A stretch of DNA of 40,453 nucleotides from a virus, in the IMG/VR virus record IMGVR_UViG_3300018465_000008, positions 1-40,453 of that record. The stretch is one strand, 5' to 3'. This document shows positions 3,324 through 32,822 of this stretch, one piece after another; the first letter of the stretch is position 1, and each line of letters opens with the position of its first letter. A model generated the notes under the pieces. That model saw only the letters and a list, made by a program, of their open reading frames with translations, was not told where the DNA came from and did not search any database. A program made the position numbers and the translations under genes.

Positions 3324-3637
3324 GCAGCGACGACGACGCGGTGCTCGCCGCGATGGAGTGGGATCTCGCCTACGGCCCCGACCCGGTGCTGGTCGACGCC
3401 GTCCGGCGGGAGGTCAACCGTGGCCGGCCGTGGTGGCGGCGGGCATCGTTCGAGCGGGTGTCGGATCTGGTCGGTGCGGTGCAGGCCGTGCGCGCCGAGG
3501 GGCTGCTTGGCTCGGATGATCCGCACGGGATCGAGGCGGTCGTGACCGCATCCGGGCTACGCGGCCGGCGTGTGGTCGAACTCGCGTGGCAGGTCACCAC
3601 CGCCGTGCTGGCGATCGAGGAATGGAACTCGCGATGA
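3320..3637 (+). CDS. Hypothetical protein (105 aa)
   Basis: It is coupled to the gene before it by ATGA (start 3320) and to the HIT gene after it by the same type of overlap. The sequence is mostly helical, acidic at the N-terminus, with a PWWRR patch near residue 38 and a hydrophobic C-terminal helix. No cysteine cluster, signal peptide or membrane segment is present and no family is recognised. Its placement directly after the probable small terminase and before a HIT-family enzyme gives no firm clue to function. Confidence 0.6.
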   Translation: MSSDDDAVLAAMEWDLAYGPDPVLVDAVRREVNRGRPWWRRASFERVSDLVGAVQAVRAEGLLGSDDPHGIEAVVTASGLRGRRVVELAWQVTTAVLAIEEWNSR

Positions 3638-3996
3638 GGGCTGCTGAGTGCGTGTTCTGCGACATCATCGACGGGCAGACGCCCGCCACGGTCGTGCACC
3701 GTTGGCCGGATGCGTGGGCGATCGTGCCGCTCGGCCCGGTCGTCGACGGGCACGTGATCGTCATCCCGGTCGACCACGTCGCTGACTACCGGGAGGACCC
3801 GGCGGTGACGGCGGCGGTGATGGCTCGGGCGGCGGAGATCGCCCCGCACCCGTCGAACCTGATCACGTCGGCTGGCCGGGAAGCAACACAGAGCGTCTTC
3901 CACCTCCACGCGCACATCGTGCCCCGCGCTGACGGCGATGATCTCGCGCTGCCGTGGCACAGCGGCCGGTGGTCGAAGAGCCCCTTGCCCCGCTGA
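3634..3996 (+). CDS. HIT-family (histidine triad) nucleotide-binding protein
   Basis: This 120-aa protein carries the complete histidine triad H90-L-H92-A-H94-I-V-P, with the typical CVFCDII opening (C6, C9) and the GHVIVIPVDHVA strand-helix segment. HIT proteins hydrolyse or transfer nucleoside monophosphates from substrates such as AMP-lysine, adenosine phosphoramidates or dinucleotides, using the middle His as nucleophile. Length and domain order match the family closely. Start ATG 3634 overlaps the previous stop. The gene is followed by a ~100-bp gap, so it ends the first coupled cluster. A phage-borne copy may serve nucleotide salvage or counter a nucleotide-based host signal; that role is inferred. 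Confidence 0.9.
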   Translation: MRAAECVFCDIIDGQTPATVVHRWPDAWAIVPLGPVVDGHVIVIPVDHVADYREDPAVTAAVMARAAEIAPHPSNLITSAGREATQSVFHLHAHIVPRADGDDLALPWHSGRWSKSPLPR

Positions 3997-18330: not shown

Positions 18331-18437
18331 ACGGTGATCGGGCGAGCGGGTCTGACTGGATTCGACACTGTAACCCGAGCCCACGTGCATACAACCGCCT
18401 GACCCAACACAGCTAGCAGCACCGAATCGGGGTGACC

Positions 18438-20411
18438 ATGACCGCCCCGACTGTGCAGCTTGCCCGCCGCGACGGGGTCGAGCTCGTCCGCACCGGCCGC
18501 TGGCCGCTGATGACCGGAACGTGGGAGCCGACCCGCGACGACATTCGGCACGCGATCGACGCGCTGAACTGTCCCGCCGTGCGCCGGCCGGTGCTGAAGA
18601 TCGGCCACCTGGACGACCGGTTCACGCCCCCGAACGTCCGCGCCTCGGACGGGGAGCCGTCGATCGGCTGGGTCGACAACCTCCGCGCCGCCGATAACGG
18701 GAACCTGCTCCTCGGCGACTTCGTCGGAGTCCCCGGGTGGATCAACGAGGTGATGGCGTCGGCGTGGCCCGACCGGTCGATCGAGGGCGACAAGAACTAC
18801 CGCTGCTCACTCGGCCACACCCACCCGTTCGCGCTGCACGCGGTGTCGCTGCTCGGCGTCACCCGGCCCGGGATCGGCACCCTCAAATCTTTGCAGGACG
18901 TCGCCGACCTGTACGGCGTCCAGGTCGCCGCCGCCGGCGAGGAGAACGGGGAACGCGTGCAGGTAACAATCCGGGCCGCCGCCGAAGTCCACACCGGGGC
19001 GATGGTCGCGCTCATCCCGACCAAGGAGGACGCGGCCCGGCTCGCAGTCGACGAGGGCGAGCTGGCGGAGGAACTACACCTGACGCTCCGGTACCTCGGC
19101 AAGGCCGCAGACCTTGGAGCACGCGGCATCCAAGACGTGATCGACCGGGTGTCGACCGTCGCGAACGGCCTGCCGCGCATCGAAGCCGACATCTCATCCG
19201 TCGCCGTGTTCAACCCCGGCGACGCCAACGACCGGGATACCTGCCTGGTGTGGCTCGTGGCTGGCGACATCATCGACGCCGTCCACGAACTCGTCGAGGA
19301 CGCCCTGGACTTCGTTGAGGCACCGATCCCGCCGCAGCACCGTCCATACACGGCGCACATCACCGCCGCTTACACCGACGACCTCGGCCGGCTCGGCGAG
19401 CTGGTGTCGCGGGTCGGACCGGTCCGATTCGACCGGCTGCGGCTGGCGTTCGGCGGCGAGTTCACCGACATCCCGCTCATGGAGTGGCCGGGCGAGGACG
19501 TCGATGACGACGCTGAGGCGGTCGCTGCCGCGGCGGGCAACGCCGACGCGCTCCACGACTACTGGACCAAGGGCAAAGGTCTGGCGAGGTGGAAGGGCAA
19601 GCCGCATCCGTGGACGGCCTTGTTCAAGCAGTTGCTGAAGCACCTCGGCCCGGACAAGGCGAAGCGGACCACGTCGAAGTGGTACCGCGAGGTGATGGGC
19701 CACACGCCCAATCAGCGTGGCAAGGTCGCCGCATCCGCTGACCCGCCCGAGCCTGACATTCCGCCGACCGCGACCACAACCGAAGAGACCCACGAGCTGA
19801 CGCCACCCGATCCGGGTGGCGTTTCTGTTTCCCCGGCCGCCGAGCCGGACCCATCCATCACCGAGGAGGACATGGTGTCCACCCTGAACGCAGACCTGCG
19901 TCAGGCGCTCGGCCTGGCCGACGACGTCGACGACGCGGGCGTGCTCGCGAAGGTCGGCGAGCTGAAGTCGCGCGCCGAAACGCCGCCGCCGGCCGAGCCG
20001 AGCCCCGAGCAGGTCGCCGCGAGTGCGGCGGCCGACGAGAAGAAGGCCGAGCTGGAGAAGGAGGTCGCGGCGCTGTCCTCCCGGATGGCGGAGGTGACCG
20101 CCGAGCTCGCCGCCGCGAAGGCCGAGAAGGTCGAGACCGTGAAGGCATCCGTCCTGGACACTGCCGTCCGCGAAGGCAAGATCAAGCCCGCCGACAAGGA
20201 GCAGTGGTCCAAGGACTACGACGAGGCCCCCGGCGTCACGACCCGCGTCCTCGCCTCCATCGCCCCCGGCACCGCCGTCCCGGTCATGGCGGCCGGTCAC
20301 ACCGGACCCGCCGAGCCGGACGTCGCCGACCCGCAGGCGTTCACCGACGCGGAACTCGACGCGTGGGCGTCGCAGCTCGGCGTCGACCCGAAGGAGCTGT
20401 CGAATGGCTAA
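18438..20411 (+). CDS. Capsid maturation protease - 2H phosphoesterase - scaffold fusion protein
   Basis: This 657-aa polyprotein starts at ATG 18438 (GGGGTGA upstream). Residues ~1-155 resemble Mu I-type head proteases: H57 in VLKIGHLDD, S114 in PDRSIEG, and the closing HAVSLLGVTRPGI segment. Residues ~187-345 are a 2H phosphoesterase (LigT/2'-5' RNA ligase superfamily) with both signature motifs, HLTL (214-217) and HITA (307-310). Residues ~370-425 hold a HDYWTKGKGLARW...HPW module seen in other actinophage proteins. From ~479 a coiled-coil scaffold follows (Lys/Glu/Ala-rich, ~530-572) with a short C-terminal capsid-binding segment. An in-frame ATG at 19872 behind GAGGAGG could give the scaffold alone, as lambda C/Nu3 does. 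The role of the 2H domain is unknown. Confidence 0.75.
   Translation: MTAPTVQLARRDGVELVRTGRWPLMTGTWEPTRDDIRHAIDALNCPAVRRPVLKIGHLDDRFTPPNVRASDGEPSIGWVDNLRAADNGNLLLGDFVGVPGWINEVMASAWPDRSIEGDKNYRCSLGHTHPFALHAVSLLGVTRPGIGTLKSLQDVADLYGVQVAAAGEENGERVQVTIRAAAEVHTGAMVALIPTKEDAARLAVDEGELAEELHLTLRYLGKAADLGARGIQDVIDRVSTVANGLPRIEADISSVAVFNPGDANDRDTCLVWLVAGDIIDAVHELVEDALDFVEAPIPPQHRPYTAHITAAYTDDLGRLGELVSRVGPVRFDRLRLAFGGEFTDIPLMEWPGEDVDDDAEAVAAAAGNADALHDYWTKGKGLARWKGKPHPWTALFKQLLKHLGPDKAKRTTSKWYREVMGHTPNQRGKVAASADPPEPDIPPTATTTEETHELTPPDPGGVSVSPAAEPDPSITEEDMVSTLNADLRQALGLADDVDDAGVLAKVGELKSRAETPPPAEPSPEQVAASAAADEKKAELEKEVAALSSRMAEVTAELAAAKAEKVETVKASVLDTAVREGKIKPADKEQWSKDYDEAPGVTTRVLASIAPGTAVPVMAAGHTGPAEPDVADPQAFTDAELDAWASQLGVDPKELSNG
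19800..19822 (+). terminator. Terminator-like hairpin inside the protease-scaffold gene
   Basis: ACGCCACCCG (19800-19809), an ATC loop, and CGGGTGGCGT (19813-19822) form a perfect 10-bp stem with a 3-base loop, followed by a T-rich run (TTTCTGTTT from 19822). This is the most canonical intrinsic-terminator shape in the window, yet it lies in frame within a coding sequence, in the Pro/Thr/Ser linker just before the scaffold's internal start. It could attenuate transcription, pause polymerase, or isolate the internal ribosome site from upstream structure. Confidence 0.6.
19872..20411 (+). CDS. Probable nested scaffold protein (internal start, 179 aa)
   Basis: ATG 19872 is in frame with the large protease gene and has GAGGAGG at 19863-19869, the best ribosome site anywhere inside that gene. 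Translation from here would give the coiled-coil scaffold alone: an N-terminal LNADLRQALGLADD helix, a disordered Pro/Ser stretch, a Lys/Glu/Ala coiled coil, and a C-terminal PKELSNG. Scaffold proteins are needed in hundreds of copies and proteases in few; a nested start solves this in lambda and many other phages. The product is inferred, not proven. Confidence 0.55.
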   Translation: MVSTLNADLRQALGLADDVDDAGVLAKVGELKSRAETPPPAEPSPEQVAASAAADEKKAELEKEVAALSSRMAEVTAELAAAKAEKVETVKASVLDTAVREGKIKPADKEQWSKDYDEAPGVTTRVLASIAPGTAVPVMAAGHTGPAEPDVADPQAFTDAELDAWASQLGVDPKELSNG

Positions 20412-27709: not shown

Positions 27710-28273
27710 ATGGCGGTCGACGTCAACCTCATCCGGGCCTACACGAACGGACTCGTCGCGGTCACCGACTTCGGCGTGACCGGCGCGACCGCCCCGACCA
27801 ACGCCTCGTCGCCGCTGAACGCGTCGTTCAAGGAGATCGGCGCCGTCTCCGAGGACGGCATCACCGAGGCGACCAGCCAGGACCGGACGGACGTCTACAT
27901 CTGGCAGGGCGCGACGCTGGCCCGCCGGATCGCCGGCCAGTACGCCAAGACGATCACCGTGGCGGCGGCCGAGACGAACATGACGACCCTCGGCGTGAAC
28001 TACCCGGGCTCGACGATCACGCAGACCGCCGAGGGCGTGTCGATCGCGGAGAAGCCGCCGGTCACGGACATCCGCCAGTGGGTCGTCCACGGCGTCGACG
28101 GCACCCGGGCGCTGCGCCTGTACATCCCGCGCGGTGAGGTGACGGAGCGCGGCGACGTCGTCTGGTCCGCCGGGGACATCACCATCTACGAATGGCAGGT
28201 CTCCTGCTACGTCGACGTCAGCGGCAACGTCATGTACCGCTACTACCTCGACGAGTCCCTCGCGACCCCGTAA
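27710..28273 (+). CDS. Major tail (tube) protein
   Basis: ATG 27710 has AAAGGAG upstream. The 187-aa sequence fits siphophage tail tube subunits: an N-terminal arm, a FKEIGAVSEDGITEATSQD segment (the usual G-x-x-S-x-D-G strand pair), a loop SIAEKPPVTDIRQWVVHGVD, and closing beta strands VVWSAGDITIYEWQVSCYVD. Length is at the lower end of the family, without an added Ig domain. It lies between the tail terminator and the chaperones, the normal place. The downstream leader carries strong RNA structure. Confidence 0.85.
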   Translation: MAVDVNLIRAYTNGLVAVTDFGVTGATAPTNASSPLNASFKEIGAVSEDGITEATSQDRTDVYIWQGATLARRIAGQYAKTITVAAAETNMTTLGVNYPGSTITQTAEGVSIAEKPPVTDIRQWVVHGVDGTRALRLYIPRGEVTERGDVVWSAGDITIYEWQVSCYVDVSGNVMYRYYLDESLATP

Positions 28274-28286
28274 CCCGCCCATGTTC

Positions 28287-28359
28287 GACGCCGGCGGGGT
28301 TCCTCAGCGGGTTGCCCGCCGGCGTCTCCCCATCAACCCGCTGAGCAACCCGCTGGAGG
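28287..28359 (+). promoter_or_regulatory. Interlocked RNA leader: two perfect 12-bp stems and a Shine-Dalgarno-covering alternative
   Basis: Stem A pairs GACGCCGGCGGG (28287-28298) with CCCGCCGGCGTC (28315-28326). Its 16-base loop contains CTCAGCGGGTTG (28303-28314), which pairs perfectly with CAACCCGCTGAG (28334-28345), giving stem B. Stems A and B can form an H-type pseudoknot or be exclusive. A second copy, CAACCCGCTG (28346-28355), continues into GGAGG (28355-28359), the ribosome site of the 28364 gene. It can pair with the same left arm (28302-28314) over 13 bp with one bulged base, hiding the Shine-Dalgarno. The element thus looks like a terminator after the tail tube gene combined with a translational switch. 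Confidence 0.6.
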
Positions 28360-28363
28360 AACC

Positions 28364-28828
28364 ATGGCACGTCTTCAGATTTTCACCCTGCCGCCTTGGC
28401 AGCAGGCCGAGCGGCCGTTCGCGTTGATCCTGGACCGCTGCGACCCGGACGCCCTGGTCGGCGCCGACTGGCAGAGGTTCGCCGAGGAGTGCGGCGCGCG
28501 TTCGTTCATGGCGACCGACCAGGAGATCACCCTTGACGGGGAGCCGTCCGAGGTCGAGATCCCGGAGGACGTCATGGCCGAGATCGCGGTGATGATCCGC
28601 GACCATGTGCAGGCCGCCGTCGACGAGGCCGCCGCAGTGCGCCCGCAGGTCGTGCAGCAGCTCGACAACATGGGTCTGCTGCCGAAGGGCGAGAAGCCGC
28701 CGCGGTCCGTGTGGGGTGCGGGCGCCAAGCCGGACCCGCGGGAGCAGATCCCGGGCTGGATGCCGCCGTCGGGCGAGGTGACGCAGGCCGTCGACACGGC
28801 GATCGGTGAGGCGGCCGGCCGTGGCTGA
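28364..28828 (+). CDS. Tail-region hypothetical protein (154 aa)
   Basis: ATG 28364 follows GGAGG. The protein starts with a beta segment (ARLQIFTLPPWQQAERPFAL), continues with helical stretches (VMAEIAVMIRDHVQAAVDEA, then VVQQLDNMGLLPKGE), and ends in a Gly/Pro-rich linker. It sits exactly where a first tail-assembly protein is expected in siphophages, before the frameshifted chaperones. Its leader suggests tight control. I cannot name a family, and a chaperone-like role is inferred. Confidence 0.6.
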   Translation: MARLQIFTLPPWQQAERPFALILDRCDPDALVGADWQRFAEECGARSFMATDQEITLDGEPSEVEIPEDVMAEIAVMIRDHVQAAVDEAAAVRPQVVQQLDNMGLLPKGEKPPRSVWGAGAKPDPREQIPGWMPPSGEVTQAVDTAIGEAAGRG

Positions 28829-29255
28829 CACCGTCTTCGACCTCGACGCGGTGTTCGCCGAGCAGCGCCAGGCGCCGTTCCGGTTCAAGTGGGACGGCCG
28901 CGAGTGGGAGCTGCCGCACCTGCACGACATCGACATTCACCTCCTGAACCGGATCCACGAAGCCGAGTCGTTCTCGGCCGACGAGGTCATGGACCTGTTC
29001 CCGCAGCTGTTCGCGCCTCGTGACCGGGTGGAGTGGCTCAAGACTCCGCAGCCTGCGCTGATGCTGACGACGCTGTTCACGCAGTGGATGGAGCATGTCG
29101 GGGTGACGCCGGGGGAATCGGTGGGCTCCGGCGACTCCTCGTCGAGCACGGAGCCGAAATCGAAGCAGACCTCCACCGGTTCTACGGCATCCGCCTCTCC
29201 CAAGCGCTCTTCTCGCAGGCCCCGGAAGACCGCTACACCGCCCGCGAACTCCTAG
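28821..29255 (+). CDS. Tail assembly chaperone, short product (gpG-like)
   Basis: GTG 28821 overlaps the previous gene by eight bases; GGTGAGG at 28805-28811 suits it. The 144-aa product has an acidic and aromatic N-domain (FKWDGREWELPHLHDIDIHL, then a NRIHEAESFS helix), typical of gpG-type chaperones that coat the tape measure. The tail from residue ~99 is Ser/Thr/Lys-rich and low-complexity, as expected for the part bypassed by frameshifting. The longer product is made by a -1 shift at 29111-29117. Confidence 0.8.
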   Translation: MADTVFDLDAVFAEQRQAPFRFKWDGREWELPHLHDIDIHLLNRIHEAESFSADEVMDLFPQLFAPRDRVEWLKTPQPALMLTTLFTQWMEHVGVTPGESVGSGDSSSSTEPKSKQTSTGSTASASPKRSSRRPRKTATPPANS

Positions 29256-29537: not shown

Positions 29538-32500
29538 GTGACGGCTCCGCTCAGCGTGGGTCAGGTCAGCGTCGAGGTCACCGCGGACGTCTCGAAGCTC
29601 GCGAAGGACCTGAAAGCCAAGGTCGAGAAGTCGTTCCGTGACATCGACTTCGACAAGGCGATCCGGGACTCGATCGGCGACAAACCGATCAAGGTGCGGG
29701 TGTCGCCTGAGGTCGACACCGCCACGATCGGGGAGAAAGTCCGCAAGATCCGGCTGCCGAAGGTCAAAGTCGAACCCGAGGTCGACCCGAAAGCGATCAC
29801 GGAGCAGGTCGGGAAGGCCAAGCCGCCGAAGGTCCCGATCGAGTTGGACCCGGTCCTGGCAGCGTTTCAGGCCGAGGTCCGCCGGCAGACCCAAGCCCTC
29901 GCCGCGACGGTCAACGCGCGTGTGCCGGTCGGCGCGGACACGACCGGGTTTCGGCAGCAGGTCGGCGCCGAGCTGGGTGCGATCCAGCGTCAGCTGAAGG
30001 CGCGGATCCCGACGGAACCTGAGGGTCGGCGGCAATACGAGGCCGAGCTTCGGGCGCTCGTCGCCGCCGCATCCTCGCGGGTCAAGGCCCGGGTGGAGGT
30101 CGAGGCGGACCGGTCGGGCGGCATCCGGTCGGTGCTGTCCGGTCTGCAATCCCTCGGTGCGGCGGCCGGGTCCGCGATCGGGCAGCTGGCACAGGTCGGT
30201 AACGCCCTGTCCGGGCTGGGCTCGGTGGCCGGTGTCGCGGGCATCGTGGCCGGCGCGATCGCCGCGATCGGGTTCGCCGCGTCCGCGGCCGTGCCCGCCG
30301 TGTACGTGCTCGGCGGTGCGCTCGCGTCCCTGCCGGGTTTGCTCGCCGGTATCGGCGCCGGGTTCGCCACACTCAAGCTCGGCTTCTCCGGCATCAGCGA
30401 CGCGTTCAAGCGCCGCCCTGGTGGCGGTGGCGGGGGAGGCGGCGGTGGCGGGGGCGAGTCCCCGGAGGCCCGCGCCCGCCGTATCGCCGCGGCCGAACGC
30501 GGGGTGGAGGCGGCCCGCCGCGGGATCGCTGCCGCGTCCCGGGGGCTGCAGGCGGCGCAGCGTGGCCTTGCCGACGCGCAGCAGGCGTACACGGACGCGA
30601 TCGAGGACGAGCGGCGCGCCCAACTGGCGGTTGCGCGGGCGCGCAAGGAAGCCGCCGAGCGTATCGACGACCTCGGTCGCAGCCTGCGCGGCGCCGTCCT
30701 GGACGAGAAAGAGGCGCAGCTTGAACTCCGTGATGCGGAGCGGGACCTGCGGGCGGCGGAGACAACGTTCAACCCGGAGCTGATCGAAGAGGCGCAGCTG
30801 CGGTATGAGCGGGCGAAACTCGCCGTCGAGGAGGCGAAGGACGAGGTTGCTGACCTGGGCGAGGAGCACGCCGACGCGAACGCCAAGGGTGTCGAAGGCT
30901 CCGACGAGGTTGTTGCGGCGCTTGAGGATCAGAAGCAGGCGCAGCGGGCGGTCCAGGACGCGGCGAACGGGATCATCGACGCGCAGGACCGGGTCGCGTC
31001 CGCCAACGATGCGGTCGCCGCCTCGTACGACTCGCTGGCCTCGGCGCAGGACGCGCTCGCGCAGGCGCAGCAGAGAGCCGCTTCGGCCGGCGGCGGGGGT
31101 GGTGGGGGCGGGTTCGGGCAGGACTTGGTCAAGCTCGCGCCGGCTGCGCAAGAGTTCGTCGATGCGATCAAGCGCCTCAAGCCTGCGTTTGATTCGCTTC
31201 GTCTCGACGTGCAACAGCGCCTGTTCCAGGGGCTGGGCGAGACGGTCACGGATGTCTTCTACGCGTGGGAGGACCAGCTCCACGACACGCTCGGATCGTT
31301 CGCGACGACGTTCAACACCTTGTTCAAGGATCTCGGACAGACCCTCCAGAAAGAGGACGTCATCCAGGGGCTCGCCGCGGGGGCGGAGTCCGTCCGGGAG
31401 AACTTCGAGAAGGTCGGCAAGGTCATCGTCGGCCCGCTGCTGGAGGCGTTCGCGGCGCTGTCGGAGGCGGCCGATCCGTTCATCGACGCGGTCGGGGATT
31501 CGCTCGCGAATGGGCTGCAGAAGTTCTCGGACAAGGTCACCGACATGGCCGAGGACGGCCGGCTGGACGCGTTCTTCCAGCGGGCGACGGGCTACTTCGA
31601 GGACTTCAAGGACATCGCGAGGGACGTCGGGTCGATCCTCGGCTCGGTCTTCTCGATCCTCACCGACTCGGAACTCTCCGACGCCGAGTCGCCGTTCGAG
31701 CAGTTCAAGAACGGCATCAACGATCTCGCTGAGGTGCTGAAGGACCCGAAGGTCCGCGAGGAGATCCAGGGCTACATCGAGGACTTCAAAGGCTTCGCGA
31801 CCACGGTGATGGACTTGGTCGAGACCGCCGATGACATCTCGGACTTCTTCCGCAACCTCGACCCGGGCGACGACGGCGCTTTCCTGGGCCAGTACGAGCT
31901 CCTCGCCACGATCGGCGACAAGATCGCCGCCGTGGACTGGGGTGCGCTCGGCACCACCGTCAAGGAAGAGGCCAAGAAGATCGGCTCGGCGGTCTGGGAT
32001 GGCCTCAAGGCCGGCTGGGATGCGGTCGCCGACGTGGGCGGCTGGATCGCCTCGAAGCTGTGGCAGGGTCCGGACAGCCTCGTCGGGAAGGTCAAGGCGG
32101 GGCTCGGGATCGCCAGCCCCTCCCGGGTCTTCATGGAGATCGGCAAGGACATCATCCGAGGCCTGATGAACGGCATCAGCGCCCAGTTCGGTGCGCTCGG
32201 CGCGAAGGCGCGGGAGATCCCCGGGAAGATCCGCGACGGTGTCGGTGCGGCGGGCTCGCTGCTGCTGCAGAAGGGCCGCGACTTCGTCACCGGCCTGCGC
32301 AGCGGTATCTCGTCGCAGTTCACGTCATTGTCCTCGACCGCGTCGAATCTTCGGGGGAAGGTCACGTCGGGGCTCGGCAACGTCGGCAACCTGCTTTACA
32401 GCGCGGGCCGGGCGATCGTGTCCAGCCTCATGTCGGGTATCCGGTCGATGCTGTCCTCGCTCGGGAGCCTCCTCGGTTCGGTCGGGACGTTCATCAAGAA

Positions 32501-32822
32501 CAACAAGGGTCCGATTGAGAAAGACCGCCGCCTGCTCATCCCCGAGGGCGCGGCCATCATCCAGGGCCTCATCGCCGGTATCGCCTCCGGCCGCGGTGAC
32601 CTGCACGCGGAGCTGAACGGCATCACGGACATGATCTCGGCGGATGCGGCGGCCCGCCTCGACTACGGCATCTCCGGTGCGATCACCGCACCGGACCCGG
32701 CGCCGCTGCTGGTCGGCGTGGACCGGTCGTCGACCGGTGACTGGCTGGTGGACGGGCTGCGCCGGCACATCCAGATCCGGCACGGCGGGAACGTCACCGT
32801 GGCGCTCGGGAACGGGAGGTAG
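29538..32822 (+). CDS. Tape measure protein
   Basis: GTG 29538 has GGGGG at 29526-29530. The 1094-aa protein shows all tape-measure features: a charged N-terminus with repeated KVRVSPEVDTATIGEKV- and PKVKVEPEVDPKAI-like strand units, hydrophobic Ala/Gly segments (~200-285), and a 12-residue polyglycine linker (near 295-306). A long Ala/Arg/Glu coiled-coil region and a second Gly run (~519) follow. The C-terminus is amphipathic with repeated motifs (KIRDGVGAAGSLLLQKGRDF, then LRGKVTSGLGNVGNLL). By the usual ~0.15 nm per residue, the tail would be about 160 nm. No lytic enzyme domain is visible in it. It follows the chaperones directly. Confidence 0.9.
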   Translation: MTAPLSVGQVSVEVTADVSKLAKDLKAKVEKSFRDIDFDKAIRDSIGDKPIKVRVSPEVDTATIGEKVRKIRLPKVKVEPEVDPKAITEQVGKAKPPKVPIELDPVLAAFQAEVRRQTQALAATVNARVPVGADTTGFRQQVGAELGAIQRQLKARIPTEPEGRRQYEAELRALVAAASSRVKARVEVEADRSGGIRSVLSGLQSLGAAAGSAIGQLAQVGNALSGLGSVAGVAGIVAGAIAAIGFAASAAVPAVYVLGGALASLPGLLAGIGAGFATLKLGFSGISDAFKRRPGGGGGGGGGGGGESPEARARRIAAAERGVEAARRGIAAASRGLQAAQRGLADAQQAYTDAIEDERRAQLAVARARKEAAERIDDLGRSLRGAVLDEKEAQLELRDAERDLRAAETTFNPELIEEAQLRYERAKLAVEEAKDEVADLGEEHADANAKGVEGSDEVVAALEDQKQAQRAVQDAANGIIDAQDRVASANDAVAASYDSLASAQDALAQAQQRAASAGGGGGGGGFGQDLVKLAPAAQEFVDAIKRLKPAFDSLRLDVQQRLFQGLGETVTDVFYAWEDQLHDTLGSFATTFNTLFKDLGQTLQKEDVIQGLAAGAESVRENFEKVGKVIVGPLLEAFAALSEAADPFIDAVGDSLANGLQKFSDKVTDMAEDGRLDAFFQRATGYFEDFKDIARDVGSILGSVFSILTDSELSDAESPFEQFKNGINDLAEVLKDPKVREEIQGYIEDFKGFATTVMDLVETADDISDFFRNLDPGDDGAFLGQYELLATIGDKIAAVDWGALGTTVKEEAKKIGSAVWDGLKAGWDAVADVGGWIASKLWQGPDSLVGKVKAGLGIASPSRVFMEIGKDIIRGLMNGISAQFGALGAKAREIPGKIRDGVGAAGSLLLQKGRDFVTGLRSGISSQFTSLSSTASNLRGKVTSGLGNVGNLLYSAGRAIVSSLMSGIRSMLSSLGSLLGSVGTFIKNNKGPIEKDRRLLIPEGAAIIQGLIAGIASGRGDLHAELNGITDMISADAAARLDYGISGAITAPDPAPLLVGVDRSSTGDWLVDGLRRHIQIRHGGNVTVALGNGR

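Follow-up and report, generated by a model that had tools for sequence, protein, structure and literature searches.

A putative leader pseudoknot with duplicated partner words at the tail-tube/tail-assembly junction of actinobacteriophages

To our knowledge, the usual explanation of how siphophages obtain abundant tail-tube protein and sparse chaperones from one late operon covers only the chaperone frameshift. The locus considered here raises the question whether the RNA between these genes takes part in setting their output. It is located in a stretch of viral DNA of 40,453 nt (IMG/VR record IMGVR_UViG_3300018465_000008, in the following termed the window), where a set of interlocked repeats sits between the major tail protein gene and an operon running to the tape measure gene. 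The features of the locus are as follows:

27710–28273, + strand: major tail (tube) protein gene (phrog_117 major tail protein, 4.1e-29; Pfam PF25681 Phage_TTP_17, 2.3e-15)
28287–28298, + strand: 5′ arm of stem S1, GACGCCGGCGGG, part of a perfect 12-bp inverted repeat
28299–28314, + strand: apical loop of 16 nt, containing the loop word W (28303–28314, CTCAGCGGGTTG)
28315–28326, + strand: 3′ arm of stem S1, CCCGCCGGCGTC, perfect 12 bp with 28287–28298
28327–28333, + strand: linker L3 of 7 nt, short and G-poor, as in relatives
28334–28345, + strand: first partner copy R1, CAACCCGCTGAG, perfect 12 bp with W (28303–28314)
28346–28355, + strand: second partner copy R2, CAACCCGCTG, 10 bp with CAGCGGGTTG (28305–28314), abutting the Shine-Dalgarno sequence (SD)
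28355–28359, + strand: SD, GGAGG, read directly from the sequence
28356–28363, + strand: SD-masking extension, GAGGAACC, 8 bp with GGTTCCTC (28298–28305)
28364–28828, + strand: ORF X, the first gene under the ribosome site of the element, a small protein with the C-terminal motif WG...DPRE.IPGW.P
28821–29255, + strand: tail-assembly-chaperone-like ORF, its GTG start (28821) overlapping the ORF X stop
29538–32822, + strand: tape measure protein gene (phrog_4197, 4.9e-80)

Pairings and genes in the window

The interlocked 12-bp pairings described in an earlier note on this DNA are present at all of these positions. A scan of the window, both strands included, for hairpins with loop-complementary copies downstream returned the element as the sole two-copy match, against 0.04 matches expected per 40-kb strand (0.33 under looser scan settings), in line with the claim that such an arrangement is improbable by chance. 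That the second copy covers the whole GGAGG holds in part. The 10-bp pairing of W with R2 by itself masks only the first G of the SD; together with the extension it becomes a 17-bp helix with one bulge, which can mask the entire SD as far as the ATG. Since this extended helix consumes the whole loop and position 28298, S1 must open for full masking. The minimum-free-energy nested fold is the SD-masked form (−49.5 kcal/mol, z −2.98), while enforcing S1 gave −38.2 and enforcing W:R1 gave −44.1; these energies are for nested folds and take no account of pseudoknots, which would allow S1 together with W:R1 or W:R2.

The gene under this ribosome site had been called the first tail-assembly gene. 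No Pfam or PHROG match was found for ORF X, and the chaperone-like ORF follows as the second gene, at 28821 (matches of the ORF 28806–29255 are phrog_8595 tail assembly chaperone, 2.7e-4, and phrog_22068, 5.3e-9), so that this designation is only approximate in the window. ORF X belongs with an unnamed family of very variable N-termini and a conserved C-terminal WG....DPR..IPGW.P, whose members separate the element from the chaperone gene in (pro)phages of Micromonosporaceae; such first ORFs were seen in L002, L003, L004, L006, L014, L016, L028 and L030–L033. Elsewhere in the window, a 659-aa ORF (18432–20411) matches head maturation protease families, has a stretch matching phrog_2659 (a PHROG labelled RNA ligase) and matches further structural families; it is possibly a multi-domain fusion.

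Occurrence and covariation in other phages

Searches for related phages by DNA identity or with ORF X found no relatives. The productive query was the tail-tube protein, which led to loci of (pro)phages in Paractinoplanes, Catenuloplanes and Micromonospora and on uncultured contigs. Nearly all of these share the arrangement, with stems and words that differ between loci (W/R pairs include GCGGGTTG/CAACCCGC, ATGCGGGGTT/AACCCCGCAT and GCGGGC/GCCCGC). An equivalent layout precedes the tail-assembly genes in (pro)phages of Micromonosporaceae, Streptomyces (VWB, Rowa, Nesbitt), Gordonia (Banquo and Schmidt, the latter with GGTGAGTC/GACTCACC), Arthrobacter (Reedo and Emotion, GCGTGGG/CCCACGC), Microbacterium (Mabodamaca and Dismas, the latter with CGGGAGCC/GGCTCCCG), Rothia (Spartoi) and Mycobacterium. 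Among the mycobacteriophages, TM4 combines CCTGGTG with several copies of CACCAGG, the final one inside the SD, Che8 combines GGGGCTGGC with GCCAGCCC and AGCCCC, and Bxb1 combines TGGCGGGCC with GCCCGCCA and GGCCTGCCA. The chaperone gene lies directly 3′ of the element in the Streptomyces, Arthrobacter, Gordonia and Mycobacterium phages, and downstream genes of Bxb1, Rowa, Emotion, TM4 and Che8 match chaperone PHROGs. In each of the three whole genomes scanned (window, VWB, Schmidt) the junction was the only match. At the corresponding junction the element was absent or not recognisable in phiC31 (which has no gap there), Kromp, LC001, Giles, phiLC3, HK97, Catfish and L012; as phiC31, Kromp and L012 have a similar gene order, the element is not essential to every such phage. 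One cluster F group (L166 and other cluster F loci) has an extra sub-hairpin inside the loop and three AGCCCC copies matching GGGGCTGGC, with a further AGCCCC just 5′ of the stem (L166).

For a quantitative comparison, a sample of 200 gaps was reduced to 43 clusters with less than 70% identity. The element is present in 33 of the 43, and 32 of these 33 have at least two partner copies. A stem of 12–18 bp was found in 34 of 38 gaps tested (probability of at least 12 bp in shuffled gaps, 0.004). Loops scored 722 with their own downstream regions, as opposed to 439±26 with permuted partners (maximum 555 among 5000), and comparison with Markov-shuffled downstream regions gave a Fisher p of about 1e-33; these pairing statistics ignore phylogeny, and alignment A4 was assembled from trimmed pieces. 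In the alignment of the Arthrobacter/Microbacterium group 100% of cells are paired, both partners have changed in 9 of the 12 pairs of S1 and in the variable pair of W:R, and sliding columns by 1–3 positions cut the paired cells to 45–69%. Segments were picked by complementarity, which hairpin selection and word search both favour; the permutation and slide controls address such bias. The variable position of this group lies in W = GCGNGGG: where N is T, both copies carry A, and where N is C, both carry G. VWB and L031 conform to this rule as well; in L031, N is G and the copies carry C. Two interleaved helices, S1 and W:R, thus each covary, as expected of an H-type pseudoknot.

Covariation in relatives had been named beforehand as the test on which the earlier note could fail, and the controls above pass it strongly; there is support, too, for the location at the ribosome site, for the presence of two competing partners and for a possible pseudoknot. 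Chance or a compositional artefact of GC-rich DNA, which the G/C-rich words might bring to mind, is disfavoured by the shuffle, permutation and slide controls, and we regard it as practically negligible. An explanation at the level of DNA would take R and the inverted W as a set of three sites bound by a phage protein, with a DNA specificity that drifts from phage to phage. The word does occur at least three times in duplex DNA, once inverted. Binding to DNA, however, would call neither for a covarying stem with W in its loop nor for copies at the SD. Where copies differ by one base, a G.U pair is kept in 12 of 19 cases, a tendency that is irrelevant to DNA binding and lends modest support to RNA pairing, and we consider a DNA-level role highly improbable. 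Because loop and copies change together while the word itself differs between phages, the comparison points to a real RNA control element, which is apparently undescribed. Its structure is well supported by this comparison; a proposed function is given below.

Geometry, attachment to the tail-assembly start and possible function

Over the 33 elements S1 has a median length of 14 bp and a median energy of −30 kcal/mol. W usually abuts its 3′ arm (L2 near 0), L1 measures 0–7 nt, linker L3 contains 5% G, and the W/R words are G/C-rich. In all 33 elements one copy lies 7–20 nt 3′ of S1, within the linker span of an H-type pseudoknot. The geometry of linker and words is that of a long-stem H-type pseudoknot, as far as sequence can tell. 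In 12 of the 33, the first copy is only 2–5 nt from S1 and too near for a pseudoknot with an intact stem. This linker-length problem would be removed if the element acted in trans, i.e., if tail-tube transcripts ending past S1 displayed W and repressed tail-assembly mRNAs via R on other molecules, and W displayed in a loop does resemble the seed of an sRNA. Such a mechanism, however, requires an additional, hypothetical RNA with a discrete end past S1, and one copy is always at a distance compatible with a pseudoknot in cis; we consider it very improbable.

The last copy ends at most 20 nt before the start codon in 31 of 32 elements and includes bases of the start codon in five. In 26 it overlaps, abuts or follows the SD of the ribosome-binding site (RBS). 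Complete masking of GGAGG was seen in the window only; elsewhere the last copy overlies the SD or is located immediately 5′ or 3′ of it. The position of the whole element points to the same start. At loci with an additional gene behind the tail-tube gene, the element is found 190–669 nt farther downstream, directly before the next tail-assembly start. Several Micromonospora loci that seemed to have no element were explained in this way, as the inserted gene displaces it downstream. An extra gene between tail-tube stop and element was seen in L007, L008, L009, L010, L015, L018, L022 and L023; in L022 it lies at 3562–3954 on the opposite strand. Since the element stays with the tail-assembly start despite the insertion, it belongs to the tail-assembly leader and not to the 3′ end of the tail-tube gene. 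Coupling to the ribosome finishing the tail-tube gene was rejected as a general rule, because the distance from its stop codon to S1 is 6–71 nt and reaches 190–669 nt behind an inserted gene.

These observations also bear on a role in mRNA processing or stability, where the element would protect the 3′ end of the tail-tube mRNA, or would be an RNase cleavage signal that splits off the tail-assembly mRNA. A very stable stem (median −30 kcal/mol) that follows an abundant message would suit this purpose, but after gene insertion the element keeps with the tail-assembly start rather than with the tail-tube stop, and its partner copies are located at the ribosome site. We therefore consider this role improbable.

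The main rival is a transcription attenuator, in which S1 would be an intrinsic or suboptimal terminator cutting transcription past the tail-tube gene, and the pairing of loop and repeats would modulate the hairpin or the release of RNA polymerase. In favour of this rival are the GC-rich stem, strong and placed behind a highly expressed gene, and the pyrimidine-rich tail, which is U-rich in some cases. The stem equivalent to S1 in cluster O mycobacteriophages, located behind the gene of the major tail subunit, was called a likely terminator by the authors (PMC4351075), and a putative terminator is annotated at the same junction of HK97. All elements have a strong stem, but a U-tract occurs in a minority (e.g., CTTCTTCCTTTTT in L004 and CTTTT in L030 and L032). 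The first 8 nt past S1 consist of 79% C+T with a median of 2 T, most elements have no clear U-tract, and the window has none (TCCCCATC). This speaks against termination in so far as mycobacterial polymerase reportedly depends on a U-tract (Czyz et al. 2014, as cited in PMC4351075). Moreover, a terminator alone leaves both the duplicate copies fixed at SD and start and the covariation of W and R unexplained. Attenuation thus appears unlikely to us, and still deserves to be taken seriously. In HK97 (L162), putative terminators are annotated on both sides of the major tail subunit gene (693–720 and 1444–1463), which suggests that isolating the expression of this gene is a broader theme.

Comparison between phages supports the pairings, their co-variation, the placement at the ribosome site and the attachment to the tail-assembly gene. 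Since the element stays with the tail-assembly gene and its last copy falls at the SD or the start codon, we favour a control of translation initiation. We consider it fairly likely that the element forms a pseudoknot of the H type, whose 3′ partner is duplicated, and that translation of the tail-assembly genes is limited or gated by it at the initiation step. It would be a cis-acting structure in the mRNA leader of these genes. The strong hairpin S1 (12–17 bp) would form first, and the 3′ part of its loop, W (7–12 nt), would then pair with a downstream complement R, so that an H-type pseudoknot with a linker poor in G results. There are two to four copies of R, of which the last is about 20 nt or less from the start codon, and with several copies for one loop these copies would compete. 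Pairing with the copy at the ribosome site would hide the SD/start region and lower initiation, while pairing with an upstream copy would leave this region free. The duplicated copy thus suggests a competition between RBS-hiding and RBS-sparing pairings. The net result would be that tail-assembly genes are initiated at a fixed low, or a gated, rate when compared with the tail-tube protein, which is abundant and encoded just upstream. We infer pseudoknot formation in the cell, translation (not transcription) as the controlled step, the direction in which output changes, and a signal, should one be involved.

A broader reading, which we put forward tentatively and hold to be possible rather than probable, is that of a widespread undescribed RNA family of actinobacteriophages, in which one loop serves two copies of the word, a decoy and the one at the ribosome site. 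Because the competing helices are nearly identical in sequence, geometry would fix the ratio of open to closed forms, independently of temperature and expression level, and the element would set the stoichiometry of tail-tube and tail-assembly proteins. A covarying leader pseudoknot at this junction would represent a general control point and an apparently new RNA family. The element occurs in the genetically tractable phages Bxb1, TM4 and Che8, where such control would be directly testable, and its duplicated-partner design seems suited to transfer into other GC-rich bacterial settings in which expression ratios are to be set.

Comparison with known systems

Rfam returned no match for the element at the gathering threshold nor at E values up to 0.5. 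Full-text searches of an open-access library returned no account of a loop pairing with downstream repeats; at most the stem is mentioned there, as a terminator. This applies to the cluster O stem, for which only the stem with TTTCT was noted and no loop/repeat pairing was described in that paper (PMC4351075). The record of Giles (L246, 1608–1675) contains a ncRNA annotated as 'pseudoknot RNA' across the overlap of genes 16 and 17, likewise without an Rfam match at E up to 0.5. It is probably a frameshift element and not a leader element, and was rejected as an example of the latter on account of its position.

Cluster K mycobacteriophages carry the SAS/ESAS repeats, one conserved 13-bp word (GGGATAGGAGCCC) in 11–19 copies per genome (PMC3203893). 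Short repeats at translation starts, in some cases with an upstream inverted repeat, are common to both systems. In contrast to SAS/ESAS, the word of our element is phage-specific, a complement in the loop is required, and there is one junction per genome (three genomes scanned). The SAS word is not found at the tail-tube/tail-assembly junction of TM4. The possibility that the window has a SAS-like word at many gene starts was rejected, since CAACCCGC is scattered elsewhere in the window and lies outside hairpins.

Frameshift pseudoknots of the IBV type have a long S1, a short L1, little or no L2 and a linker of about 8 nt or more. The phage element shares the long S1, the short L1, the little or no L2 and the linker length, but it is located in an untranslated leader, with no coding overlap and no slippery site. 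H-type pseudoknots that control translation at the ribosome site are known from rpsO/S15, the T4 gene 32 leader, preQ1 riboswitches and IncI-alpha repZ. As in these, the loop of a stem pairs with downstream RNA at or near the SD, which makes translation initiation the likely target. Unlike them, the phage element has no known ligand or protein and no sequence in common with them, and it combines a stem of 12–17 bp with two to four competing 3′ partner copies. The element would act like the known RBS pseudoknots while matching none of them in sequence, and its multi-copy partner is a difference.
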